In this document: in pieces, positions 1 through 53,660 of the stretch
Layout: each line of letters begins with the position of its first letter
Position numbering within the stretch: the stretch's first letter is position 1
NCBI GenBank assembly: GCA_025716815.1
Contig: JAIXMN010000001.1
Span: forward strand, 2,294,001 to 2,358,000
DNA length: 64,000 bases
Reading direction: 5' to 3'
DNA from: Dichotomocladium elegans
Lineage: Eukaryota > Mucoromycota > Mucoromycetes > Mucorales > Lichtheimiaceae
The notes under the pieces: model-generated
Told to the model about the DNA's origin: nothing
The model's database searches: none
Seen by the model: only the letters and a program-made list of their open reading frames with translations
Position numbers and translations under genes: made by a program

Positions 1-2469
1 ATCCTCTGTACAATCCATTCAATCCAAATATGACATTGCATCGCCTTCTGTATCAGTTAATAATAACTCCACAACGGATGACATCCGTCGGCAGCAGCAG
101 CAGCAGCATCACCACCACCGCCACCATCAACGTTTTGATGCCGATTATGTCCTTGCCCTTCTACATTACCACGGCTTATCCACGTCCGATACACCGTTAG
201 AGAAAAAGCAGCAGCAGCAACAGCAGCCCAACTATGTAAAAGCACGAGAACTCTTTCAGAAAGCTGCTTCTGAGCTGCGGTCTGATCTCCTTCGGTATCC
301 TGAATACAGAACTGAGATCGTGCATATCATTGCCGACGCCTTATATCATCTTGGCGAGATGCACATCACCGGCAAAGGCGTGCCTCACCCCGATTCATCC
401 AAGGCCATGAAATATTTCGAGTCTGCTGCAGACAATGGCCACATGCTTGCGCAGTATATGGTTGGTCACTATAGTCAGCATGCCGACAACCTTCCTCGCG
501 CTATCGACCAGTATCGACGGGCATGTCTCCAGGGTTATGTCAAGGCAATGGCCGCCCTCGGTATCCTCCTTATCAAGCACCACAAGACCTTCCCTGACCT
601 CTTTTCTGAAGCCCAAAAGTGGCTCCAGTGCGCTGCTGAAAAGGTATAGAAGACCTCAACTTTTCCTTCACCAACCCCTACCATGCAAGGGCACATGCGC
701 ATATATCTGACCTTCACCATCATTCACTCTCATGATGCGCTTGAACAGGACGAACCGACTGCCATCCTTCAGCTTGCATATCTCTACGAGGAAGGCAAGC
801 TTGTAGAAAAGAACATCCAACATGCGTTTGTGCTGTACGAAAAGTATCTTGCGCTGTGTCCGCCGTCGCGAGTGGCGAATCATGCCGAGCTTCACCGGGT
901 GATGGGTTTACATTACCGCGAAGGCGGGACCGACCTCAAGACGGACTACCAGGCGGCGCTGAGACACCTGACAATAGCGGCTGACACCGGGCTTGCGTCA
1001 GCCCAGCGATCGCTCGGGTTCATGTATCGGCTTGGGCTCGGCATTCCTGTGGATACTCACGAGGCCCGCCGTCTGTTCCGTCTTGCTGCAAATCAGGGAG
1101 ACGTGCTCGCGCTGGGTGCTCTTGGAAACCTGTATCGCGCCCGCAGGGGAGAGCGCAATGAGGCTCTTGAATGCTACCGCCTAGCAGCCAAGTCTGGGTT
1201 CCCCCCTGCGCTGATGTCGCTCGCCAACCTCCTCGTTGAGCTCGACCGGCCTGACGAGGCTGAGGAGGTGCTCCGGCGTCTGATTGCAGACCCCTCGGGA
1301 ATGTACTACTCAACAGCGTTGCTTCATCTGGGCCTGCTGCGCCGCGACGTGGATCTGCTCCAATCGCTTAACGACCCCACCGCCGATTACAACCTCGGCC
1401 AGATGGCCTCCTCGAGGGACAATGCCCTTGCGCATTATATCCGCGCGGCCAAGGCCGGCCATGTCGAGGCTATGTACCAATGCGCTGACATTCTCGCCAA
1501 CCATCGCAAGGACCCCGCAAGCGCCTATCACTGGTACACGCAGGCGGCCAACCGCGGCCATCCGATGGCCCAGGTATGTGAGGCCTTGTACTACATGAAT
1601 GGTCTTCCCCCGGTGCGCACCAGGGATTATCCTCGCGCAGAAGGGCTGCTGCGCCAAGCCGTCCGAAAGAAACCTAATCAGGCGAACGTACATCTCGCCA
1701 CAGTCCTCATGGAGAAGGATCCGTCCGAAGCACGTAGCCGGTTCTTATCTGCTGCTCAGGCGGGAAATACCACAGCCATGCGACATCTGGCTTCCATGCT
1801 CGATCAGGACAAACATGAACAGCAGCAGGCCTTTCTGTGGCTCCAAAAGGCAGCCGATCTCAAAGATCCACGGGCCATGGTGACCCTGAGTGAGCACTAC
1901 GAAAAGGGCCGCTGGTGTGACAAAGGCGAGACAGGCATTTGCAAGGCACTTGAATGCCTCAAAGAGGCAGAAGCACTAGGTTATACAAGGTACGCAATTG
2001 AGACTGATTTCGTTTTACTTCCCCTCCCCATCCCACTCCAAATATAGTCTACCTCAATTTACTCGTTGAAGAGAGAGAGAGAGAGAGAGAACAGAAGAGT
2101 GCGAAAAAGAAGAATCTAACCCATGTGACCAAAAAAAAAAATCCTTCGAATAGAGCGAGTTTCAATATTGCTACGCTCTATGAGAGACAATCGTTGTGGA
2201 AAAATGCGGCTGACAAGTACGATTCGATTGCAGCGAAATTTCCAATAGAAAACCAATATGGATGGTTTGCTCGACTGTTGAAGCACCGCTTGGTAGTGTT
2301 GCATCAAGTCGGTGATGTGGCCGAATCCTATCGACTGTTGCAGGCAATGATCAAGCACCCACGTACCCCGGAAAGTCTCATTGAACCTTATGAATTGTTA
2401 GGTAATAGAAAAGAGAGAAAAAAAAGAAAGGAAGAAAGCAAGAAGAAATCATTCTAACCCGTTTCCTTT

Positions 2470-2502
<33 letters not shown>

Positions 2503-4756
2503 TCTTTTCAGGCATGTGTTGCGAAAACGATCGGGGAATCCAATGTGACTTGGCCAAGGCCACACAATGGTATGAAAAGGCCATCCAGGTTACTATCAAA
2601 GATGGCGAAGACGCCGATCTCAATCAGGAACGTGTACGGTGCAGACTTGCCTCGCTGTATTTTAAGCAGGGCAAACATGAAGCAGCATTTTCGTGTCTGC
2701 GTGCACTCGAGCCCCATCTCGACAAGATGCGGTCGCACTCATCGTCCGAGACTGTTACACAAGCCCGCGAAGCACGTTTTCTCCTGGGTAAGTTAGTCAT
2801 GCCATTTGTCGCTGCCCAACTAACCCCCATTTCAAATAATGATTTTTATTTTTTCGAAGGCTACCTGCTGTTGCACCAGTCTGAGCCCGACGTATCAGAA
2901 GCAAAGCGCTGGCTGGCTGAGGCAGCTGATCAAGGTCATTTAGAAGCCGACTACGAACTAGGCAAGCTGGCGCTCCGTGAGAATGACCATGCCGAGGCAA
3001 GATACTGGTTCGAAAAGGGGGATTATAAGGGCAATGCCAGTTCAAAACGTGAGATGGCGCTGCTTCTGCTCCAAGATGGCATGGACGACAGTACCGTCGC
3101 AGGGACCATCCGCTGTCTACTAGACGAGGCGATCGATATGGGCGACATGGACGCCTGTTTTGAGCTCGGCAAGCTGTACGAGACCAACCCCAAGGGCCTC
3201 TTTCCTTCGGAAAACCACCGGGCCGCATTCAATTTGTATGTCAAAGCAGGAAAGCAAGGGGGCCATCGTCTAGCTCGGATCGCTGCGGGCGAGGTGCTCT
3301 ACTACGACGACCATCGCGAGCAAGACGCATTGGTCTGGTTTGAGCTTGAATCTGACCACTGGTTTAGCCAGTTCCGCATGTTCATGATAACCCAGGCGCA
3401 CAGCACAAACAACAACAAAATTCAGTATCTGGAGACGCTCCTCCCGCCCGAACCGCCCGAGACGGATACACACGAGCGGCTGTGGTGGTGCAAAGCAGCT
3501 TACTCCCTTGGACAATGTGCGCCTGATGACGAGGTAGCCATCAGATGGTACACACGAGCTGCGGACCTCTTGCACAGGAAATATGTGCCTGCCATGCTGG
3601 CGCTTGCGAATCTTTACTTGGATGGCCGCAAGGACGAGGTGAATGCGCTCGAATGGTATCGCCACGCGGCAGATCAACATGATGTCACGGCGTTGTACAA
3701 GGTCGGTCTCTTTCATCGCGAAGGCAAGGCCGGCCTCGAAAAGAACGTGGTGGCCGCAGCCACTTATCTCAAAAAGGCAGCACTCAAGGACCACCCGGAC
3801 GCCACATTCCGACTCGGCGAGGCGTACTGGGAGATGCGTGATTACAAGAAAGGGTGGAAGGCGTACAAGGACGCGGCTGACAAGCATGGATGCCTTCCTG
3901 CCCTCCAGGCAGTTGGCTTTCTGTATGACCGCGGATTCTCGATGGCCGACAGGGAGAACAAACCCTTCACTATCACTAAAGACAAGAACAAGGCGATCAC
4001 ATACTTTTGCCGCGCAGCCAAAATGGACGATATCGACTCGATGATTATGCTCGGTCAATACCACGAGAAGAACCCCACCAAGGCCCTCGGATACTACCGA
4101 CGAGCGGAAGCAGTCTCCTCCGCACAAGAGACGAATCCCCTCCTCGATTTTGTCCTCGGGCGACTCTTCCATCTGATGGCCAACGACAGCACGAACGAAC
4201 TCCAGCGCAATGAGCATCACAGGACAGCTTATCAAAGCCTTCAACGTGCTGTCACATCAAGTGCGCAGGACGATCGTGGGGTTCGGATACACGCTGAAAT
4301 GCTGATGACACTTTACCACCTGTATGACTGGTACCCACCTGTGCATGATCCTGCCAAAGCCCTCCGCGCACTACTGAAGATGGAACAGGATGCTGATCCG
4401 GAATCCATTGTCAGCGTCAAGGAGAACCTCGCCTACTGTTATGAGAAGGGCGTCGGCACCGAGAAAAATATCCCGCTGGCCCTGGCCCAATGGAAAAGTC
4501 TCTGTGAGCACGGCGTTCGCCATGCTCTGGCCGCGGTCGAGGAGTATCACAGAGACGGATTGGCCACCGACACAGACCTGCAGATTGCGAGACAGGCCTT
4601 CCAAGCCTCACAAGGTAAAAAAAAAATAACCAGACTTCGCGTCCTTGTCCCTTTTGATACAGTAGCTGATGACTTACTCCTGGTGTTTTAGCTGTCAATG
4701 GCTATGCTGATACTCGAACAGAAACAGCCTCATCCGCAGGTTCGAGCTATAGGTAG
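1..4756 (+). CDS. Sel1-repeat (HCP-like) protein, 5' truncated
   Basis: Exons: before 1 to 643, 749-1979, 2048-2401, 2512-2787, 2860-4614 and 4692-4756; all junctions are GT-AG and keep one frame for at least 1440 residues. The product is a long series of Sel1-type TPR repeats (alanine-rich helical pairs such as 'ALYHLGEMHITGKGV', 'AYCYEKGVGTEKNIPLALAQW'). The N-terminal part visible here has a poly-Q/poly-H tract (about 92-130) and another poly-Q tract (about 208-228). Proteins of this family are scaffolds for protein-protein contacts, often in chitin-synthase activation, ER quality control or signalling; which applies here cannot be told. The start codon lies left of the window. The exon starting at 2048 translates a GA repeat into an Arg/Glu run. 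The intron at 1980-2047 uses a weak donor (GTTATA); the stronger-looking GTACGC 10 bp downstream breaks the frame. Confidence 0.85.
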
Positions 4757-5103: not shown

Positions 5104-5260
5104 CTTTATTTTCAAAAATAAATGTCGTAAACAAGATAAAATAATGTCGTGCAAAATACAAGAAAAATGTCGCATAGAATTATATAAATTTGTCGTATCA
5201 ATAGGTAAAAAGATTTCGCATCCATGGATGAAACCCTGTTAGTCAGCAGAAAACACTACG
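5104..5260. repeat. Left terminal and subterminal repeat of Fanzor element
   Basis: Begins after a TA with CTTTATTTTC, the same ten bases that begin the elements at 43486 and 11290. Inside are repeated TGTCG(T/C) motifs. The stretch 5138-5256 aligns with 11311-11409 (shared blocks include GCAAAATACAAGAAA versus ACAAAATACAAGAAA, and TTAGTCAGCAGA versus TTAGCCAGCAGA), so this is a dispersed family end rather than unique DNA. Confidence 0.7.
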
Positions 5261-5400
5261 CCTTCTCCAATCCCGTTGACTTACAACACACCGTCCTTCC
5301 AAAGGAAGGGGGCTTGCCCCGAAGGGCTGTGGTTATCCTGGGGTGCGTCAGCGATAACTGACGCGGAAAATTCTTGGTTGGGGTTACGGTCGTCTCGACC
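5261..5400 (-). ncRNA. Candidate Fanzor guide RNA (omega/fRNA) scaffold
   Basis: Immediately 3' of the Fanzor stop codon lie four short perfect hairpins in 113 bp: GGTCG/CGACC with a 3-base loop (5388-5400), GCGTCAG/CTGACGC with a 6-base loop (5345-5364), GCCC/GGGC with a 4-base loop (5316-5327) and CCTTCC/GGAAGG with a 3-base loop (5295-5309). The local GC content is well above the surrounding AT-rich DNA. In known TnpB and Fanzor loci the guide RNA is encoded at and beyond the 3' end of the nuclease gene, overlapping the element end. Position and structure fit; expression, exact ends and guide segment are not visible from sequence. Confidence 0.5.
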
Positions 5401-7583
5401 CGCCAGAGCGTGCACCTCGTGGCCTTCCTGGCCTTGCCCGTCGTAGTCTCACGCTGCGCTGCTCTGGTTCAGGTGACTGTGACCTTCCACCAGCTGCGGA
5501 TGCTTGTGCAGCATTTCTTCTCTGGAACCTTGCTGGGATGATACCATCTTCCCGAAGACCCCGGAGGATATGATGCATGTTGAGAGCCGCCGCCAGATCC
5601 CGGTTCCATAACCTTGGTTGACAAACACCCTCTGCCATGCCTGCTGTACAGTTTTGATTTGTGCATTTATTGAAACATCAAAATACTGTATTATAATCTT
5701 TTGGAAATATAACACAACATGCCCGTCCTTCATACCGTAGCAGGCCATGGCAGATCGTGAGCGGATTGTCGGGTCGTCGATATGGGCGTGGATTAGGAAC
5801 CATTTTAAAGGTAGCAAGGCTTTCATTGTCACATACAGGGCAGCACTTGCTTGTCTTGTACTCGTCGATCAAATAAATATTGCAATTGTTCTTCTTCAAC
5901 AGCCGCCGGAAGCCGACACCACGGATAGGCTCGTGATATCTTGTATGCGGCGCAGACCAATTTCCCATCACGAAAACGGATCTACTGCCAAGCTTGCGCA
6001 TTCAAAGAGTCGAGAAGCTTTTCATCTGCTTGCTGCTTCTTGTAAAACGCTGACAGGCGAAGTTTTCGAAAATGAAATTGCGGGTTCGGGTGGTTCGTAG
6101 TGGTTGTCGCGTAGAAAGACTTGAGAACTACAGAGACCCGATTCTTGGCGGCGAGGTATCCGTCGTAGTTGGGCACGGAAAGCGTATGACTTTGAAATTG
6201 AGATAGATTCTGCTCAGCCAACGCGACCTCGGGTTGCTCTAACTTGAGTCGTTCTCGGAGTCTGCGGTACCGTTTGGTCTTCCGTGTATGATCTTGAAGC
6301 TGCTTTGTATATCGGAAGGTCTGGTGGTTGTCGGGTGACGAGTTCTCATGAACGCAATACAACAGGTCCCTTCTGCCAGGATCAATGGTGACCCATTGTC
6401 CTCTATAGTCTTCGTTCCGGACTATCTGTGGGGTGACGTATTCGATATCTTCGCTCTGGATGCCAAATCTCTGTCCGAAACCCGATTGAAGGCCATTTGT
6501 CTTCTTGAACACAGTAACACCGACGCCGTCAGTGTGAATAGTCCCACGGAATTGGAGCAGCTCGGATTCTTGGGGTTTGAAAGCTCTTGATTTCAGGTTT
6601 ACAACACGTCTCCAGTACTCCATATTGCTTGTGTGGGATTCCATTTTGCAGCCCAGGATATGGTAGCAAAGGATTTTCGTATCGATCTCCATGTAGCATG
6701 GTGACCACGAGCGACAAAGTGGAAAACAGTTGAATCCGCGTATTCCGTTCTGTTGACAAACGCGTGCAAGCTGGAAGAAGGCGTTGAAATGCTTAACAGG
6801 ATTGGCCTTGGCGTCGTAATAGATACTCTGGTGTTGGAATTGGTGGTTTCGGGGGTAAGCGTTTAAGACAGGTTGTAGGATATCGTATGCTTCCCGAAGA
6901 AATCCAGGTTCGGCATTAATGTCTTCCCTCAAAGCACCTCGACGGGCAATTGCTAGCTTGAATCCTGTGGCATGCCGGGTGATGGTTTCATAAAGGTCCT
7001 GGCGTACTTGATCGGGGCTTAGACCCTGTGCGATTAACTCTCGCTTGCGGTCGGCTTTTCGCTGACGAAGATTCAGGATGACATTGATGACACGCCGAAG
7101 GTGTTGCCCGAACCGCATGTGGACATTATTCACGTAAGCAGTATAAATCTTGGTGCCTTCGTAAGAAGAACATTGCTGGGAATAAGGGAACGCAGGCCTG
7201 TTGTATCCGGATATCCAAAGGTACTCATCCTTGTGGCGATTAATTAGTTCTCGGATGCGGGCAGTTTCACCTTGGGTGCGGCGTTCGGCTTTGTTAACCA
7301 TGGAGAGCCAAACTTCTGAAAGAACTTCTCCGTGATGTTTTCCTGGATGTTAAAAGTTGGATCGCGCGCTGCCTCGTTGATGAAAATATATTTGGCGAAC
7401 GCGTACGCCTGTGTTGTGATGTTGTGGACCAAGGTCGACCAACTGATACAGACGTTCACGGTACTGCTGTCGCCAGCCGATGCCCCGTATGGACGATTTC
7501 ACCCCAATTATACGGCCAGTGCGGTCAATGCTGTGGCCAGTGCGCATGCCTTCGGGAATGACGGGGCGGTGGGGTTGGGCCAT
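5384..7583 (-). pseudogene. Fanzor (TnpB-like RNA-guided nuclease), frame broken
   Basis: Fanzors are eukaryotic relatives of transposon TnpB: DNA nucleases directed by an RNA, found in transposable elements and giant viruses. The coding trace is about 700 codons. It starts at a plausible ATG (7583), shifts frame near 7440, shifts again near 7300, runs 439 codons (7301-5982), shifts near 6000, and after an unresolved 60-90 bp stretch (about 5640-5725; small intron or damage) ends at 5384. Catalytic residues are all present: RuvC-I Asp in 'TIDPGRRD' (codon 6381-6383), RuvC-II Glu in 'LIDEYKTSKCCPVC' (codon 5861-5863) and RuvC-III Asp in 'LWNRDLAAALN' (codon 5597-5599). The 'CPVC' and 'CHGLL' cysteines are the expected zinc finger, and 'GNWSAP' plus 'HEPIRG' are Fanzor signatures. 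The tail after RuvC-III is Arg/Ser-rich. Single-base shifts suggest recent decay or assembly errors. Confidence 0.85.
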
Positions 7584-8439
7584 TTGGTGGGTGAAGACCT
7601 AGGGTATATTATTTCTTAGTATCGCAGAGCCGAGTATGAAAGCGGCCGTATTACCTTTCAACCGTAAATGTGGTGCTGTGTTATTTCCTGTAGGCTGAAT
7701 GGGCTCTAGTTTTGTATGTGGATAATGGAAAGGGACAGTTTGCTTGAGCATCACTATTTATAGTGTCAGCAATGATCCATCTCCACAGTGTTTTTCTTTT
7801 TCCCACTGGGTTCTTTAATGAGGTTTTACAGTGGCCGGTCGTTATAGTGATATTCATTATAATGGATAATTCGTTATAGCGATACACTTTATGAAGGACA
7901 AAATTGCCAGGTAGGGCTTATTCCAATTCATTATAGTGATAATTCATTATAGTGATGCGATTTCCTGGAACCGAGGGTATCACTATAACGGGCGGCCACT
8001 GTATCGACGTGAGGGAGGTCTGAAATCAACAATGAAATCCCAAACAATTCCAACAAGTAATTCCAAGAGACCATCTCAAGAATAATCCGATACATATCCG
8101 GCACTTGTGTAGTGTAGGAAGATTGTATTTCTTTTCGTACTCTCTCAGTCTCTTACAACACAACAAAACACGACACTGCTGTCATCCTTATCCATACGTT
8201 CAGGAAGTGTAGGTACATAATGAATAATTTCTCTGAATATTACAATGAGAACACAGGAGTCTCCTGAAAGCCATTACTTCATTATTCCATTTGATAACCA
8301 GCTAAATGGCTCATTGACAAAAGCAACAAGCACATTCTGATAGTTCTTTGTTCTTTCCAAGAATAAACTTACTCTTCTCGATATAGGATTCTTTTGAGTA
8401 CGGCTATTTTTAGCGACAATTGCATTCTAGAACAATAAA
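7584..8439. other. Interior of Fanzor element, non-coding
   Basis: Between the Fanzor start and the transposase remnant. Apart from the nested MITE (7829-8001) I see no coding sequence; if the element is a composite, this is where the catalytic part of the transposase has been lost. Confidence 0.45.
7829..8001. repeat. MITE copy 1 (nested in Fanzor element)
   Basis: A 173-bp element flanked by TA on both sides (7827-7828 and 8002-8003). Terminal inverted repeats start CAGTGGCCGGTCGTTATAGT and end with the complement (ACTATAACGGGCGGCCACTG). The interior repeats GTTATAGTGATA-type units in both directions. The TA duplication and CAGTGG ends fit a non-autonomous Tc1/mariner-pogo superfamily element. 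Copy 2 is at 12149-12305. Confidence 0.85.
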
Positions 8440-8840
8440 TGCTCTTCATTGAGAATACACGATCGGCCCTCTGCTTCTACGTTTCTTAAAATGCTGTCAG
8501 GGTCCTTTTCTTACTGCAATGCCCATCGCTGTGCTGAACGAACATGGAGTCCTAGCTTTTTTGCTGCAACTGATGCACTCAATACCTCCTCAAACACCAG
8601 TTTGAAACATCTGACCTTGCCTTGATCAGTGTATGCTGTGTAACTGCCGTTGATCCCCGCTTCTTTCATCCGAATGTATGTATCCTTTCGCTTGGGAATG
8701 TGTGAGAGAGTAAACTCAGAGTTATCTTTGCACGATATGCTACGCAGATATTCAGTGTAAGAACAAACGGATTGAAGTGAGTACATTTCCTCATCAGCGA
8801 CATGACCTTGGCCATCGTTGTAAAATAATAGATTGCTCAT
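8440..8840 (-). pseudogene. Tc1/mariner transposase, N-terminal remnant
   Basis: An open frame from 8840 to 8511 encodes a helix-turn-helix region ('SASVAAKKLGLHVRSAQRW') after 'MSNLLFYNDGQG', then stops; similarity continues to about 8440 ('EKDPDSI...'). It matches the N-terminal region of the element at 43.5-45.2 kb over its whole length, including the 'YTAYTDQ' block. The DDE catalytic part is absent here. It lies next to the right terminal repeat, as expected for the 5' end of a Tc1-like gene. Confidence 0.75.
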
Positions 8841-8884
8841 TTCAAAATGTAAAAGTTTATAAAAAGAGTCATAAGGATGAGATG

Positions 8885-9030
8885 GATTTGCGACATCTTT
8901 CCGTGTATGTATGCGACTTTTGCTTTGTCATCACGCGTAAAGATTTCCGGGCAAAAATGCGATTTGTATTTTTGCGATCCTGCGACTTCAGAACTGGCAG
9001 GGTGCGATTTTGATTTTGAAAAATGGTGTA
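8885..9030. repeat. Right terminal and subterminal repeat of Fanzor element
   Basis: Aligns with 45017-45158 (shared blocks CCTGCGACTTCAGAACTGGC, AAAGATTTC and GCGACATCTTTCC). On the minus strand it carries about six TCGCA motifs facing inward, mirroring the left end. Both copies finish at a TA. Confidence 0.75.
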
Positions 9031-32810: not shown

Positions 32811-34981
32811 AATAAAGCTGACAAAACGGAGAAAGGCAAGGATTCGATTTCCTCCCAGATGAAGACCTTAATTCGGAGCTGGAATGGGTTGGCCGCATTT
32901 GTCTAGTTGCAAATGAATGTTCATACAAGGAGCTTGCCATTCCGCCATCTCTGTGTACAGCCAACAAACTAGAACAAGCAATGAGTTGTTTTACGAAAAT
33001 GTGCAGGAATATGTTGTTGATAAGCGGGACTGTCCTGAGCTTGTTGACTATGTCGTTGATGAGGAAGTCTATAAATTCTATTCAAGTTCTTTGTTCATGG
33101 GGATACCTTCATAGTCTAATTTGTAATGGCAACCCTGGACCTACTGGAGCGCATATCCCCAAGCGAGGAGATACAGATTTTCCGGTGAACGATGGTGGGT
33201 TTTAGCACAGCACAAAAAAGCTATACTGGCTAATGCAGCGTCTGATTTTTCTAGCTTGCTGTCTGAGAAACGTTTGAGTACATCAAAGCAACTACAGTAG
33301 CACTACAAATTAGATCAGCACAGCGATGAATATTAATTTATAAAAAGACACAGATGGCTCTACTATAGTATACATCTAAGAGTCGTTCGTGTATTCTCAG
33401 TAAAGAACATAAAAGTGTTGCTTACGTTTGTAACTTGCGAAGCAACCGCTCTAGAGGTTTGGGTTAGAAAACCATGAAGTTGCGATATTGCCGACTTGTC
33501 AGATTCAGATAAGAGGTTTCATAAGGAAAGCTGATTAGGTTTTCACGGGATGATGGTGGATTCAGTCGATGCTACCAAAAGAAGTATTTGATGAATTTGC
33601 GATATTATCAGGTCAGATCGTTGTTTACGCCTCGGATTATTCTGTTCTAGAACCCCTTACAAGGAAGAAATTCCTGTCTCATGGGTATCTCCACTCGCAA
33701 AACTCATTGTTTGACTCTTTTAGCTATTCGAAACTTTCAACCGGTCTAGTCAGACTGCATTATCTATTAATCTAGAAGTGGCAGTATATCGCTGGGTTTT
33801 CAACAAAATATTCATATATACTGTCAGAATAACGATCGACAAGATATCACCATAGCGTCGTGCAATAAACACAAAAATCTATGGGTTTTTCTCGGCTATT
33901 CAGTCAGTGGAACTTTTTTGTTCGCAGAATATGAGTATAGCTTAGCAGTGGAGTAGTCTATGAAATTGGGCGACGTCGCAAATGGTTTTGCATTGTGTCT
34001 TGCCATTATTGCTGCCAGCCGCTGCTGGCTACGTCGTCATTATCCTCACATCAAGAGAGACATCGAAGTCAGCGCGTGCCTCAGAACGCATCATCGTCAG
34101 CAGCGAAGGCAGTGTTTCTTTGTGCTTCGATGACTTCTCATTGCATGCTTTGTTATTAGGAACATTGTTCAGCCGATATGTTCACACCACACAAATAAGG
34201 GCTTTCCTCCATTGATCACGATAGACGGAAGTTCCAACGCAGGAAGATCTTTATTATGTAATATTATACTGCACTGTACCTGGGATGGCACTTCATTCAT
34301 CAGTAACGTATACTTGATATTGATCCAAGTTGTATGCTGCTCAGCTTGTTGCTTAATGAAGGCAGAGACTACAGGTAGAATTTTTTCGCAGGCAGCCTGC
34401 TGGCAGGGAAGGGGATTAAAACACTATATGCGCTTTGTTATATTTCAAGAGAATCGCAGTATGAGGACTCTCGAGTTCTTTGTTAATAATAAACGCATTG
34501 GAATGCTTAGCAGAAGACACAACAAGTCATGACTCCCGCAATCCCCATAAAGAGCTTTCCAGCCCTGTTATCGCAGAGTTAAGATGCGGTAAGCAAGATA
34601 CTTGGGCTACTCTCCATTCAATGAATGGAGGGAGGCATCCCATAGATGGGCTGGATGGGAATAGAGCAATACAGCCTGCTATGTGACAGCAAATAGGCTC
34701 GACCTAACATCATTTCATTGTATGTTCATCGGCGCACACGCAAACTGCTCGGCTTATTACACGTACAAATTGCCTCTATTGAACCACAAATACTATGTAC
34801 TGGTGGCGTGATATCCATGATCGCATGACGCAAACTTGATTGAAAATAAAAGAGTGCTGCTCAAAAGTAATGTGTTATTGCAATCTGAGTTTGTAGCTGG
34901 GGTTGGTGGATAATATTTTTTATTGTGTCCTGTGATGGCTATCGATGGGTAGGTCTTAAAAGAGACGTACAGTACAGCATC
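32811..34981. other. Gene-poor region upstream of PEX4
   Basis: AT-rich, only short ORFs without family resemblance. The immediate upstream part is the PEX4 promoter. Confidence 0.45.
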
Positions 34982-43485: not shown

Positions 43486-45156
43486 CTTTATTTTCGAAAA
43501 ATAATATTGCCAATATCAGCTCCTTCTTATTCTTTAACTTACCGCGAAGGTAGCCAGGTGTGTGCCGACGGTAACCGGCGCGGAAGAGGGATGAAAGGAA
43601 GGATCTGGATCTGTTGAGCGTTGATGGCGGATGTCATGGCGGAAGGGCTGGAGGAAAGAATGAGGAGGGACGACGATGGACCAATAACAATACCAGCGGC
43701 AGAAGCATTGGGGGAAGCAATGGAAGAAGCAGTCGAAGACAAAAGCACCTCGACGAAGTCATGGTGGGAGACCTGCGCAGGTGCAGCCAAATCACGGTCT
43801 CACCTAAAGGCCACATCCTCTCCTCTCGAGGCACTTGAGTTAGGCTGGTATCATTATCTACGGAGGATCCGGAATATTAGAAGATTACAGTATGGAACAA
43901 GTCGATATGATAGGTTAACCTATTGCATTTTACTTTGCTCTTGATAACTGACAAGAACTGCTCAATCGGGTTGAGCTCAGGCGAGTGTGGATGGTGATAA
44001 GCACATCGATATCCTCAGCCTTATGGATAGGTTCATACTTATCCATCCCGTCCATCATAGCCTTAAGGAAGCGGGGATAATGTCCAGTTACAGTTCCTCT
44101 GCTCGTAACTGCAGATTGACCTGCCCTCTTTTTTTTTCTTGGTTGGCAACTGCGCGGATCCCAAGCTACAATTATTATGATGCCTAATGCTGAGGTCGCA
44201 CCCAAGATTGTGGTTGACTTTGCTCTTGTCTTTGGTATTGTGACCACTGCAGGAGTCCCTTTCTTGGACCACGCCATGCTGCGTTTCATATTAATATGGA
44301 ATCCATACCCGTCAAGGAAAACGCAGTTTTTTTCTAAAGTCGATGTCGGTCCTATCCCATCTGCGCACCCAGTCAAGGCGCTCTCGGATCTTCCCAGTAC
44401 TATTAAAGTTTACATGCTGAACCATTTTCAATGAAAAGCTACATTCGATTTGCATAATTCGATAGAGCGCCGTTTCAGATATTTTAGACCCTCAAATCTT
44501 TGTAACAGTTGCTCCATCAGCTGCTCTAGGGACAATGGATGGATTCTCATCAACACATTCAAATAACGCTCTTATGCTCTTCATTGTGAATACGCGAACA
44601 ACCCTTTGCGTTAGGTTTCTTAAAGATGCTGTCAGGGTCCTTCTCGTACTGTAGTGTCCATCGTGGGGCTGGACGAACATGGATTCCTAGATGTTTTGCA
44701 GCAGTCGATGCAGTCCAAACCTTCTCAAACATCCGTTTGAAAAATTTGACCTTGTCCTGGTCCGTGTACGCTGTGTAACTGCACTTGATCCCTACTTCCT
44801 TCATCCGAATGTCTGTATCCTTTCGCTTGGAAATGTGCGTGGTAGTAAGATCAGAGTTATCTTTGCAAGATAATGCTACTCAGATATTTCAGTGCGAGAA
44901 CAAGCGGATTGCAGAGAGTACATTTCCTCATCAACAACAAGACCTTGCCCATTATAAAAAAACTGATTGCTCATTGCAGAATGTAAAAAGTGTATAAAAG
45001 AGAAAGCTTTCTTGTGCGACATCTTTCCATGTATGCATGCGACATTCGATTTGTCATCACGCATAAAGATTTCTGGGCTACATGCGATTTCAGTTTTGCG
45101 ACCCTGCGACTTCAGAACTGGCAGGGGTGCGACTTTTTGATTTTGGGAAAATAATG
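43486..45156 (-). mobile_element. Tc1/mariner-type transposon, degenerate
   Basis: 1671 bp, flanked by TA (43484-43485 and 45157-45158). Left end CTTTATTTTCGAAAAATAAT, right end on the minus strand CATTATTTTCCCAAAATCAA, imperfect terminal inverted repeats. The right 150 bp carry repeated TCGCA motifs and match 8885-9030. The size and single transposase gene are typical of Tc1-like elements. Confidence 0.85.
43880..44974 (-). pseudogene. Tc1/IS630-like DDE transposase, broken
   Basis: N-terminus 'MSNQFFYNGQG' (ATG 44974), helix-turn-helix 'ASTAAKHLGIHVRPAPRW', then shifts of frame; the catalytic region reads 'FLDGYGFHINMKRSMAWSKK' and 'GTPAVV', typical of fungal Tc1-like transposases around the first Asp. 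'MDKYEPIHKAEDI' corresponds to the second Asp block (normally DNAPIH). 'HSPELNPIEQFLSVIKSK' (near 43940-43995) carries the third acidic residue, reached only by another frame change. Several shifts and a deletion between the second and third blocks make it inactive. Confidence 0.8.
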
Positions 45157-49063: not shown

Positions 49064-52000
49064 TTAAGTTCGCGCATACATTTTCTGGTGTTGTATGTGT
49101 AGCTCTTTCTGTCTCTTGACCTGTTCCTCCAGCAGCGCAACTCGGTTAGCCAATGCTATGAACGCATGATTCTGCTCTCTCATAATTCGTCCAATATCTA
49201 AAGGTACATATTAGAAATGAAGATGTAAAATAAACTTGCATGAAATTCTGTTTCGACAAACCTTGGGGTGTATGTATGTTATGTTTGGACCAAGACTCCA
49301 CTGTCCGCTCAATTTCCTATGTGATTGGCAAATGTTATGAGTCTCACTGATATCTCTCTGCTATAACTTCTTTCAAAGGGAAAAAAAACTCACCCATACG
49401 GTTTTGTAATAGTGCTCAAGTCGCTCTCTCAGTTGGTTGGTAAGGTTGGCAAAATAGCTAAGATGCACGAGTTAAGTCTTTCCTCATTAAAATACCAGTA
49501 CGTCGTTCGCTCACTTACTCATCATCCGTGCCATATCCAAAAAGCCAACGACCGGAACTTCCAGGATTTTTGCACGCCTCAATAACGCTGCTCGCATCTG
49601 CAGCATGTCGTAATTGGCTGCCTGATTTATCAAATAGTCTCTCGGTCGCTTCTATTTGACCCTTGAGATTACTCGACAGTGCACCAAGTTCCTATGGATA
49701 AGCCGCACATGAGAAAGGAACGTTTTATATTCAATCTGTTGTTACCCCGTACCCTGATTAGCGCGTCGGTTTGGGTTTTGGCAGCCTCTATAGCATTAAT
49801 CTGTTGCTTGGCGCCACGCTTCACAATCGAATCGCAGCGTTGGCTTTCTAGACGGATATATTGGTGTAACTGGTCCAACTCTCTTTGCGCCTCTTCTGGC
49901 AATTCAGAAAACCGGGTGGTTGCCAAGATATTATCAATCCGAAAGTTGGTTGAGGTTACAACTTGATTTTGTCTATGAAACGTCATGCCGTGAGCCAGAA
50001 TCCGTCGACATTTATACCATACCGTCGGACTTACTGTAAACCCATCAACGCCGGTGTCATCAGAGACGCGTGCATCTGACTGGGGGGTTGCGATGCAATC
50101 TTTTCCATATCCTCCAGCAGCTTTGTGAACGAAAAGACATTCTGCTTTGCAGCAGGCGCAGTACTTGTAGAAAATGAAAAGCCACTTGATGTGGGCGCAG
50201 CCGAAGCTGAAGTGCTGGTTGAGGATGGTTGGGATAATGCAAACGACACCCGCTTATCGTCTTTCTTTTCCGCATTGCTGTTTGCTGCTTTCGGATCTAG
50301 TGCGATTCCGCCGGAGGATGTGATGTTGAGCGAAAATGGAGATGTCCCTGAAACAGGAGTTGCTGTAGAGCTCGTGCTCGATGGGAAGCTAAATGTTGGA
50401 TTCGTCGAGTCACTGCGCGCAGTGGTGCCAGTAGATACCGTATTGGCGGCGCCAAACGGGCTACTCGAGATGGGCGCAGTGGATGGAGCGAAGGAAAATA
50501 CAGGTTGGGAAGTCATTACGGAGGATGACGTTGTACCCGTAGATAATGACTCAGGCTGGAAAGATTTAGGAGCGGCTATTTTTTTGATAGGGATGTAATC
50601 ATTGGACGCAGATAGTAAAAATGAGTATTAGTTCGTTTGACTACATGACCAATTGACCAATTCACGTACCTTGAGACATGCCTGATTTAGAGGTGCTATC
50701 CATTGATTGCGAAGATCCAGTTGGCGAGGAACCAAATGTAAATGTTGAGTTTCCTTTTTGTGTTACAGCTGATGGAGATCCCATTGATGCCGAGGTGGAG
50801 AGTAACGAGCCTCCTGTCACTGTTGAAGGCTGGGATCCGGCAACGCTATTAGGGGCAACTGCTGGCTTCGATGTTACAATACTCGTCTGTGTCGACGAAA
50901 GGAAGTTGAACGAAAAATTGATGAGCCATGGGTCCCAAAAGTAAAAGTCAAATTGCCTGGGCTACTTACTGATGCAGGACTGCTGGTTGGTGGTCCGAAT
51001 GTGAAGGATGACTGAATTTTATTATCAGTTGCTGTAGCTGCGTTCCCGGGCGTTCCAAACGTAAAGGTTGGTTTTGTAGCGCTATCCGCTGGTGCAGACG
51101 AGCTGCTCGGCGTTCCAAACGCAAAGGCTGGTTTTGTAGCGCTATCTGCTGGAGCAGACGTGGTACTCGGCGTTCCAAACGTAAAGGCTGGTTTTGCAGC
51201 GGTATTTGCTGGAGCAGACGAGCTGCTAGGTGTCCCAAACGTAAAAGCTGGTTTTGTAGCGCTATCTGCTGGAGCAGACGAGCTGCTCGGCGTTCCAAAC
51301 GTAAAGGCTGGTTTTGCAGCGGTATTTGCTGGAGCAGACGAGCTGCTAGGTGTCCCAAACGTAAAGGCTGGTTTTGTAGCGCTATCTGCTGGAGCAGACG
51401 TGGTACTTGGCGTTCCAAACGTAAAGGCTGGTTTTGCAGCACTATCTGCTGGAGCAGACGAGCTGCTAGGTGTCCCAAACGTAAAGGCTGGTTTTGTAGC
51501 GCTATCTGCTGGAGCAGACGTGGTACTTGGCGTTCCAAACGTAAAGGCTGGTTTTGCAGCACTATCTGCTGGAGCAGACGAGCTGCTGGGTGTTCCAAAC
51601 GTAAAAGCTGGTTTTGTAGCGCTATCTGCTGGAGCAGATGTGCTTGTTGGGGCCCCAAATGTAAAAGAGGGTTTGGTGGCGTTATCTTGTGGAGTAGAGA
51701 TGTTGCTAGTTGCACTGGATGAAAAAGGAAATGCATTGGCTGTTTCCGTTCGTAACGACGTGTTAGTTGCGTCAAACGTAAGGGCCGGTTTGGTGCTTAT
51801 ATTCGGCGGTGTAGAGGTGGGACTTGATGTGCCAAATATGAAGGATGTATTAGTCGTGATGTCAGCCGATGCAGGAGTGCTGTGAGAAGCACCAAGCGAA
51901 AAAGATAGCTTAGCAGTGTTATTTTTGGTATCAGAGCTATTGCTCGATGAACCAAACGTCAAAGAGGACTTAGAAGTGCTGTCAGTCGGCAAAGAAGAAC

Positions 52001-53153
52001 CGCTGGGTTTCCCAACTGTAAATGATGTCTTAGTGGAGGTATCGACTGGTGCAGAGTCCTTCGATGTCCCGAAATTAAAGGAAGGCTTGCTACTATTATC
52101 CATTGGTGCGGAGGTACTGAAGGGGAATAACGGTGTACTGGATCCATCACCAGAGATAGAAGGGCTGTTAGATGCGCCAACTTGAAGAGTAGGCTTGGTT
52201 TCGCCATCTGTCGTCCCAGGTTTACTTGAGGTTTCTGTCGGGAGAGAAGGAGCGATAGTCGATGTAGGTGTGGCGTCAGGATGATTCAAAGCAAATACTG
52301 TCTTTGACGGTGTGTTAGTGGATGAAGCAGACGGAGCCACAAAGGAAAACGGGCTCTTGGCAATGTCACTCTTGGTTGTATTCTTATTCAAAGGGGCCCC
52401 AAAGGTAAACGACGCTTTCGAGGCAGAATTTGATGAGCTTGTTTGTACAGAAGCGACGCTTCCTGTAGGCGAGCCAAATGAAAAAGGTTTTGCAGTAGTA
52501 CTCTCCTCATCCTCAACAAAAACAAAGGAAGCACTGCTCGGTGCTGGAGATCCTGCTGCACTGTTGCCGCCTTCATTTGCGACAAAGCTAAAGGGACTGC
52601 TGCTTAATGTTGGGGATTCCGCGTCGCGAGTGGTAGGACTTTCAGAAATAGACGTAATTGCGGAAGTGTCAGCAAGTGAAATAGCAGATGCGCTGGAGCT
52701 GGGTACAGAAAATTGGAACGTTTTCGAAGATGTATATGTTGCAATGTCTTCTGTGTTCTGCTCTGTTCTCAATGGGGCCGTCGACGTTTTGTCAGCCTTA
52801 CTATGGCTCGAATCGCTGGCCGAGGCAACAGCTTGAGTTTCTTCCTTTGAGGGCGAGTTCGTTATTAATACTTCACTCGTTTCGCTTGAGCTAAAATCGC
52901 TTGCGGTGACATCTGTGTTGCTTCTAATTGCGGATTTTGTCGAATCAACTGTGACGACCTTTATCTCCTTTACCGAAGATTGTTGTTGGGATTGCTCCTC
53001 AGACGTAGAGATTTCTAGCGTTTCATCTCTTTCAATGACGGCACTCTCTTCAGTTCGAATCGCTGACTCGGGTGCTCCCGTTGAGGGATTGGAATCAGAA
53101 ACGTTCTCAGGAGTGCTCACTTCTGGACTACTTGAATCAAAAGAGTTAGGCAT
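49064..53153 (-). CDS. FG nucleoporin, Nup49/Nup58 type
   Basis: Eight exons: 53153-50970, 50886-50670, 50575-50035, 49972-49753, 49691-49519, 49457-49394, 49316-49262 and 49197-49064; 1195 residues. The first 970 or so are Ser/Thr-rich FG repeats, mainly FTFG and FSFG, including ten or so near-identical 20-residue units with the core 'KPAFTFGTPSSSSAPADSA'. The C-terminal 220 residues are coiled-coil and resemble fungal Nup49 and animal Nup58: 'TTRFSELPEEAQRELDQLHQ', 'RERLEHYYKTVWEIERTVES', 'LANRVALLEEQVKRQKE'. In the nuclear pore this segment pairs with Nsp1/Nup62 and Nup57/Nup54 in the central channel, and FG repeats bind transport receptors. The protein is about twice the length of yeast Nup49, mostly from FG expansion. 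Exon 3 uses an AG at 50577-50576. Confidence 0.85.
51040..51660. repeat. 60-bp coding minisatellite in FG domain
   Basis: About ten tandem copies of a 60-bp unit in phase with the minus-strand nucleoporin frame; each encodes 20 residues with one FTFG (or FAFG). Units alternate in two versions (Thr-Lys and Ala-Lys before PAFTFG), so there is a 120-bp higher-order period. Antisense frames across it are also open. Confidence 0.95.
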
Positions 53154-53660
53154 AATTACTCTAACCGTGCATTGGCTTTTAAATTGTTTCTTGGGCCGAA
53201 CCTGTCTAGTTTTTGGCTTCCAACATTGTTGTTAATATTATACGCGATGCATTACTTGCCGCTGTTCTTACCTCATATCGAGGACGAAGCTTGGTGGCGC
53301 GAGAAAGGTACTTGGATGGAACTTCAATGCCAACCTGATCGCGTTGGTTAGGCCATAGCAGTCACTCCCAATTCTCGCATCATTTCACTCCCGTAAACCC
53401 ATATGGAACAGCAAATAACCAAATTACACTTAATACTCTAAGAGTTTATAATCCTTTGTACTTCGTCTACATTATACTATAAAACTCTGGATATTCTCTT
53501 CTCGCAGAAAATAAAGAGACGACACACAAGAAATCAGTATTGTCAATCAGACCGCACTCTTACTTGAGAAAAACGCAGACACCAACGCAATTAGGCAAGG
53601 ATAACTAGTGAAAAAAAAAGCCAAGTAGTGACGGTGCATATTCATGTATTCATCGCAAAA
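53154..53660. other. Nucleoporin promoter / WW gene 3' flank
   Basis: 507 bp between two minus-strand genes; no coding sequence seen. Confidence 0.5.

Follow-up and report, generated by a model that had tools for sequence, protein, structure and literature searches.

The Fanzor1 gene at positions 5384-7583 (minus strand) of the window, as we call the whole stretch of 64,000 nt of Dichotomocladium elegans DNA that was analysed, is a dead and in itself unremarkable copy, but the family to which it belongs is of interest, Fanzor1 having been captured there by a mariner-type transposon. The earlier note had described the gene only; a 3.9-kb transposon of a mariner-derived family surrounds it. Taking all the evidence together, we consider it probable that the locus is a copy, dead in its protein-coding part, of a non-autonomous mariner-derived family whose cargo is Fanzor1 and a candidate right-end guide RNA, and which would be mobilised in trans and kept by homing or retention. 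Comparison at the sequence level established the identity of the gene as Fanzor1, its intron, the ends of the element, the loss of the transposase core, the existence of intact sister copies, a signal of selection on the protein and a covarying hairpin. The gene itself is composed of:

5736..7583, minus strand: Fanzor exon 1, with RuvC-I DPGRRD, RuvC-II DEYKTS and the first zinc-finger pair, and with three private one-base length changes
5667..5735, minus strand: intron, donor GT kept and acceptor site changed in the window copy, boundaries set by alignment
5384..5666, minus strand: Fanzor exon 2, with the second zinc-finger pair and RuvC-III WNRD

The central frame of the gene (window 5985-7349, minus strand; 455 aa) matched the Fanzor1 protein of P. 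parasitica (PpFz1, PDB 9cf0) with an E value of 2.1e-67 and SpuFz1, the Fanzor1 of S. punctatus (8gkh), with an E value of 1.1e-20, while the C-terminal piece matched 9cf0 with an E value of 1.5e-29. The spliced intact sister copy L002 matched the P. parasitica protein end to end (E = 8e-129). The earlier note had read a Fanzor with its catalytic and zinc-finger blocks on the minus strand and had proposed an alignment with characterised Fanzor1 proteins. These motifs were confirmed: in an intact sister copy the RuvC-I DPG, the RuvC-II block with DE.KTS and the C4 zinc finger, and the RuvC-III RD align to both 9cf0 and 8gkh, and the pieces of the window copy contain the same blocks. Of 5.8 billion proteins searched, 48 matched at E ≤ 0.001, the named ones belonging to Mucorales, Umbelopsis, Syncephalis and other early-branching fungi; two of the 48 are from D. 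elegans itself (contigs C29 and C31 of the genome of the window). Homologues from this search carry PF26935, a family that the Pfam scans of the present sequences did not report, and no Fanzor family was named in those scans above cut-off. In the window, Rfam gave no match at gathering scores and ARAGORN no tRNA. We identify the gene as a Fanzor1, with RNA-guided DNA cleavage as its predicted activity.

The window copy is unable to make a whole Fanzor protein. It carries one-base length changes near 7430, 7322 and 5996, common to none of the other 28 aligned copies, which bears out the three single-base shifts placed earlier at 7440, 7300 and 6000. The interruption that had been noticed at 5640-5725 turned out not to be simply damage, as most of an intron (5735-5667) lies inside it, and what is damaged there is the acceptor site, which is changed in the window copy. 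Plain decay of this segment was rejected, since the intron is found there in all 29 aligned copies, always after CHGLLR and ahead of the remaining zinc finger and WNRD, with a length of 64-69 nt (64, 65 or 69 nt). The spliced junction CHGLLR-C aligns with the solved P. parasitica protein. GT-AG ends are present in 26 of the 29 copies, the others being the window copy and, with a changed donor, L009 and L023. Introns are shorter in L021 (65 nt) and L023 (64 nt), and the exons remain open in both. L022, the 3′ part of which is missing, was excluded from the frameshift alignment.

The damage had been ascribed to recent events or to assembly errors, and the frame damage is indeed private to the window copy. 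Taken alone, the three shifts, all of them private and of single bases, could be sequencing errors. However, an assembly error of the one-base kind is insufficient, because the window copy also has a changed splice site and 17 exon substitutions, which are not one-base length errors, and the same assembly yields 16 intact copies among the 28 others. That the window copy is truly intact and only appears broken through assembly or sequencing errors is thus very improbable.

The existence of intact copies elsewhere in the genome, supposed earlier together with the proposal of a host-genome search, was borne out by the sister copies. The protein query gave at least 101 matches in its own genome, in a search in which 93 of 676 candidates were scored, and the 26 best other copies (L002-L027) showed 93-98% identity over almost the whole query. 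An open frame together with a GT-AG intron was found in 16 of the 28 aligned sister copies (L021 with an in-frame deletion), and in L009 and L023 the frame alone is open, without GT-AG. The element that surrounds the gene in the window has the following features:

5104..9028, minus strand: Fanzor-carrying mariner-derived element, 3925 bp, ends set by the limit of homology between copies and by end patterns in the window
9029..9030, no strand: TA, presumed target duplication on the left side (element orientation), TA duplication being supported by the natural empty site of L008
5102..5103, no strand: TA, presumed target duplication on the right side, adjoining the right end
9012..9028, minus strand: left terminal inverted repeat, CACCATTTTTCAAAATC
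5104..5122, minus strand: right terminal inverted repeat, TTTATTTTTGAAAATAAAG
8439..8864, minus strand: transposase N-terminal (helix-turn-helix) remnant, with a premature stop, DDE catalytic part absent
7829..8001, minus strand: nested short inverted-repeat element with CAGTGGCC ends and TA on both sides, 26-base arms and tandem 16-mers

Tens of copies at different sites have common ends, so that the element is a eukaryotic transposon carrying Fanzor, and the terminal inverted repeats of the window element are common to transposase-coding elements. A DDE transposase of its own is absent from the window element, which has a truncated N-terminal part only, whereas an intact frame exists in relatives; we therefore describe the element as mariner-derived and non-autonomous and not as an autonomous mariner. 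Its left 0.6 kb shows 79-89% identity to decayed mariner elements (L042, L043, L044 and the second element of the window). The helix-turn-helix naming of the remnant is weak by Pfam (HTH_23, 0.061) and comes from the match to the transposase of relatives. Its premature stop is common to 27 of the 29 loci with a match among L001-L030 (the exceptions are L006 and L027; L024 gave no remnant match and is outside this count), and the remnant is frameshifted in seven loci (L004, L005, L008, L010, L020, L021 and L030). These stops and frameshifts led us to reject the idea that the remnant encodes a retained protein or an exon fused to Fanzor. Fanzor is intact in L004, L005, L008, L010 and L021 despite the frameshifted remnant. 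As to the nested element at 7829-8001, its arms are present in many family A copies, and in L018, L025, L026 and L027 the Blast alignment is interrupted here.

Relatives of the element occur in the genome in several arrangements. In L082, L083 and L084 a broken transposase and Fanzor lie on the same strand, with open Fanzor frames of 648 aa in L082 and 649 aa in L083. In L081 the two genes lie on opposite strands, as an intact transposase frame of 475 aa and a Fanzor frame of 609 aa; a convergent order is also seen in L109 and L110, with Fanzor found in part only, and L111 is a deletion form without Fanzor. L045 is a copy with an internal deletion, and in L044 and L046 a mariner left part is joined to a similar right end, without Fanzor. 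The transposase of L085, a near-identical twin of that of L081, has a DDE_3 match (1.8e-30), and the full 475-aa frame is present in two of 115 genomic transposase matches, namely L085, the query itself, and L081. The window element would be moved in trans by a transposase from relatives with matching ends, for which this intact frame is a candidate source; the left end of its sub-family is only about 74% identical to that of family A.

Two further loci are of mixed composition. L023, together with L105 (C79), is an apparent hybrid with the Fanzor and right end of family A and a C-type left end, which suggests exchange between sub-families. L083 (C40:581000-587500) is a family B element beside or nested in another mariner copy, near the left end of the latter; read by eye, no clear duplication was seen for a nested insertion.

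The window itself holds another member of this group, with the following features:

43486..45156, minus strand: second, decayed mariner-type element with similar ends, right-end hairpin present
43930..44409, minus strand: DDE transposase relic in the second element, Pfam DDE_3 6.9e-5, below the curated cut-off
43495..43587, minus strand: right-end hairpin RNA of the second element, 69.8 bits, E 2.8e-16, a match by construction as the sequence itself is in the model

The genome-wide protein query gave no Fanzor match in 43486-45156. Elsewhere in the window, two adjacent frames on the plus strand (650-2047 and 2409-4691), the second of which ends some 400 bp from the right end of the Fanzor element, presumably encode Sel1-like repeat proteins. 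A 785-aa open frame on the minus strand (50874-53231), with 60-bp tandem repeats (51049-51642) reading KPAFTFGTPSSSSAPADSAT, resembles an FG-repeat nucleoporin.

Selection on the Fanzor protein was tested on 23 copies ungapped in the exon columns, leaving out the window copy and codons with more than one base difference, against a neutral nonsynonymous to synonymous ratio of 2.24 derived from the observed mutation spectrum. Among these copies, the ranking of which by protein similarity to the window copy biases the test towards conservation, variants shared by at least two copies comprised 18 nonsynonymous and 37 synonymous changes (omega ∼0.22; binomial P = 3e-8). Single-copy variants comprised 133 and 94, respectively (omega ∼0.63), and the two classes differed significantly (Fisher P = 0.0008). 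Because shared variants are so strongly biased towards synonymous changes, the protein was probably under selection while the family spread, though the element lacks a transposase of its own.

The same data bear on whether Fanzor is a neutral passenger that hitch-hikes on a mariner element, its intact frames only marking recent amplification. Over most of its length the element is 97-98% alike in many of the best copies, which points to a young burst, and the window copy and others decay freely. A 17-copy core departs from neutrality in its shared variants (7 nonsynonymous and 12 synonymous; P = 0.005) but lacks a significant contrast with its single-copy variants (39 and 44; P = 0.46). In the 23 copies, however, shared variants are more synonymous both than neutrality predicts and than single-copy variants, and the adjoining transposase remnant is frameshifted in several copies where Fanzor is intact; we regard a neutral passenger as improbable. 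A Fanzor domesticated by the host would likewise give a selection signal on the protein, yet tens of copies lie at unrelated sites with transposon ends at their borders, making domestication extremely improbable.

The reading of Fanzor1 as cargo of a mobile family includes a candidate guide RNA at the right end, where the window element has two features:

5104..5370, minus strand: candidate omegaRNA scaffold region of the right end, with the flanking sequence past 5102 as its putative guide
5345..5364, minus strand: covarying hairpin with a 7-bp stem and a UUAUCG loop, directly after the Fanzor stop

This hairpin, with variants of the loop, lies 96-261 nt ahead of the right end where both were found, and occurs in members of families A, B, C and TC as well as in mariner-only elements; a strict hairpin pattern gave no match in L022, L035, L038, L039, L040 and L043. 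Covariation was analysed in a sequence alignment of 13 right ends with 500 shuffles. Paired cells made up 95.6% of the hairpin compared to 75.8% in the shuffles, double-change cells numbered 18 compared to 5.4, and the covariation score was 0.679 compared to 0.284, values that none of the 500 shuffles reached; slid controls gave scores of at most 0.139. Less clear are the compensatory double changes in five of the seven pairs, which 38 of the 500 shuffles reach, and the count of further pair types, reached by 117 of the 500. Genome wide, the pattern TCCGNNNNNGTTATCGCNNNNNY occurs 240 times and its reversed control once. Among 100 of the 240 matches listed, 68 pair fully and 45 distinct stems are found; in the latter, 80.9% of cells pair compared to 55.9% with shuffled partners (largest value 67.6%), and 15 of the 45 pair fully. 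The whole right-end fold hardly beats shuffles (z = -1.46; 20 of 200 as good), the support for the RNA being one hairpin only. The region lies where an omegaRNA scaffold is expected and we consider it a candidate for one. In convergent sub-families, the right-end RNA is located away from the 3′ end of the Fanzor gene. A weak match to the right-end RNA model was also seen at 34555-34619 of the window (plus strand; 15.6 bits, E 0.12), with a stem AGCCCTG-TTATCG-CAGAGTT that resembles one in L036; this may be what is left of another Fanzor-type family with a different right end.

The insertion sites are asymmetric. TATA is the left flank in 25 of 26 paired family A copies as aligned, the exception being L002, where it is displaced outwards by one base; as right flank it occurs in 15 of the 26 (left-right difference P = 0.002). 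Outside this set of pairs are L020 (left end disrupted), L022 (right end missing), L023 and L025 (left flank not in the set) and L026 (left TATA, unpaired). TA adjoins both ends in 24 of the 26 pairs as aligned, a one-base indel shifting L002 on the left and L029 on the right. A left-end pattern that required TA and looked for A or T at -5 gave 168 matches genome wide, and among 100 of these listed, the bases at -4/-3 were TA in 79, CA in 17, TG in 3 and CG in 1. Right-end matches numbered 363, and among 96 exact ones listed +3/+4 varied (TA 25, TG 15, AT 11 and others). Some flank rows represent duplicated loci: L044, L046, L071 and L073, on four contigs, have one left flank in common, near the contig end in C39, C36 and C33 and also in the small contig C121; a subtelomeric segment may have been duplicated here.

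Duplication of the TA target is supported by one natural empty site. A search with 26 joined flank pairs left one usable case, L008, for which repeats at C36 and C45, some 80% alike, served as the comparison; these empty sites have T at -4 in the target and differ from the filled site at -3. A paralogue of L009 at C35 was not used as an empty site, some 46 extra bases lying between its flanks. Shifted boundaries were tried as well: in 24 pairs of family A and 8 of TC type, longer target duplications were not clearly more frequent than with shuffled pairing (L002 and L029, which have indels in their ends, were left out).

The YATA left flank might be set by gating through the Fanzor target-adjacent motif (TAM) or might, instead, be set by the transposase or belong to the left end of the element. 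The base at -4 tracks the left-end type, being T with the CACC and CACTCTTTTTC ends and C with the CACTCTTTTCC end (7 of 7); left flanks are CATA in families B and C, and L023, which combines a family A Fanzor with a C-type left end, also has CATA. Against an origin in the transposase, a TA-duplicating enzyme with two alike subunits should favour equal bases on both sides, which is at odds with the left-right difference in TATA, and at the empty sites of L008 the T at -4 is present in the target. YATA also agrees with the published TAMs of SpuFz1 (CATA) and PpFz1 (ATN) (PMC11423790, PMC10432273); as given in these texts, the TAMs of SpuFz1 and GtFz1 stand in opposite order in the two papers, and we followed PMC10432273, in which CATA is that of SpuFz1. 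Because the -4 base follows the left-end type and L023 has CATA, we weigh TAM gating and transposase preference about evenly as causes of the left flank.

In the mechanism that we favour, the right end would be transcribed into an omegaRNA with the flanking genomic sequence after TA as its guide. The Fanzor of an intact copy and this RNA would cut the same site when the element is absent, and repair would copy the element back. Such retention or homing through cutting and repair copying is a model known from studies of bacterial TnpB. With its ends and hairpin intact, the window copy could still supply guide RNA to the proteins of its sister copies. A further idea, which we hold only tentatively and think rather doubtful, is that insertions persist only where the left flank equals the Fanzor TAM (TATA or CATA), that ghosts such as 43486-45156 survive through their guide RNA and a borrowed sister protein, and that convergent sub-families have an RNA promoter of their own. 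If true, insertion sites would carry an imprint of Fanzor, and the guide RNA of the convergent sub-family would be uncoupled from the Fanzor transcript. The genome is a natural experiment: it contains Fanzor copies both intact and dead, elements that lack Fanzor but have the same right-end RNA, genes arranged on the same strand or convergently, hundreds of insertion ends and one covarying hairpin. It lets one ask whether the nuclease gates the persistence of insertions and whether guide RNAs act in trans, and makes it easier to study why jumping genes retain a DNA cutter. The biological function of Fanzor is described in the text of PMC10711439 as little known.

Among the papers listed in literature searches on Fanzor and on the Dichotomocladium elegans genome, none dealt with Fanzor in Dichotomocladium. 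Compared to PpFz1 (PDB 9cf0; PMC11423790), the intact sister copy has DPG, DE[YF][KR]TS, the C4 zinc finger and WNRD aligned, and differs in that some 93 residues of PpFz1 between aligned blocks (chain 1002-1094) are absent from it. We take these to be part of the cyclophilin-binding FRI insertion described in PMC11423790. The family resembles SpuFz1 of Spizellomyces punctatus, as presented in PMC10432273, in its many copies (42 loci for SpuFz1) and in the presence of Fanzor-less ghosts with related ends (134 for SpuFz1), and families B and C have CATA as their left flank, like the TAM of SpuFz1; the protein match of the intact copy is weaker, however (E = 9.3e-51), and the word mariner is absent from the main text of PMC10432273. 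With the Fanzor1 reRNA of SfAV, as described in PMC10711439, the window element has in common that it is non-autonomous and that the target duplication lies, in its case by prediction, inside the RNA scaffold, ahead of the guide. Unlike it, the SfAV element is viral (insect) and its transposon family is given as unknown, and its RNA was sequenced whereas that of D. elegans is predicted.

The family also resembles the Mariner Fanzor1 elements PUl-4, PGv-1 and others (Bao and Jurka 2013, PMC3627910), which have mariner ends and TA duplications and also come both in Fanzor-only and in Fanzor-plus-transposase forms. Unlike those elements as described there, the D. elegans family retains a truncated piece of transposase, and its host contains versions of both the same-strand and the convergent kind, their right ends being similar. 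Mucorales Fanzor cases described in that paper are classed as MuDr or left unclassified. Fanzor in mariner elements has been in print since 2013 (PMC3627910); what is added here is a right-end RNA that covaries across sub-families, whether same-strand or convergent, a selection signal and an asymmetry of the insertion sites.
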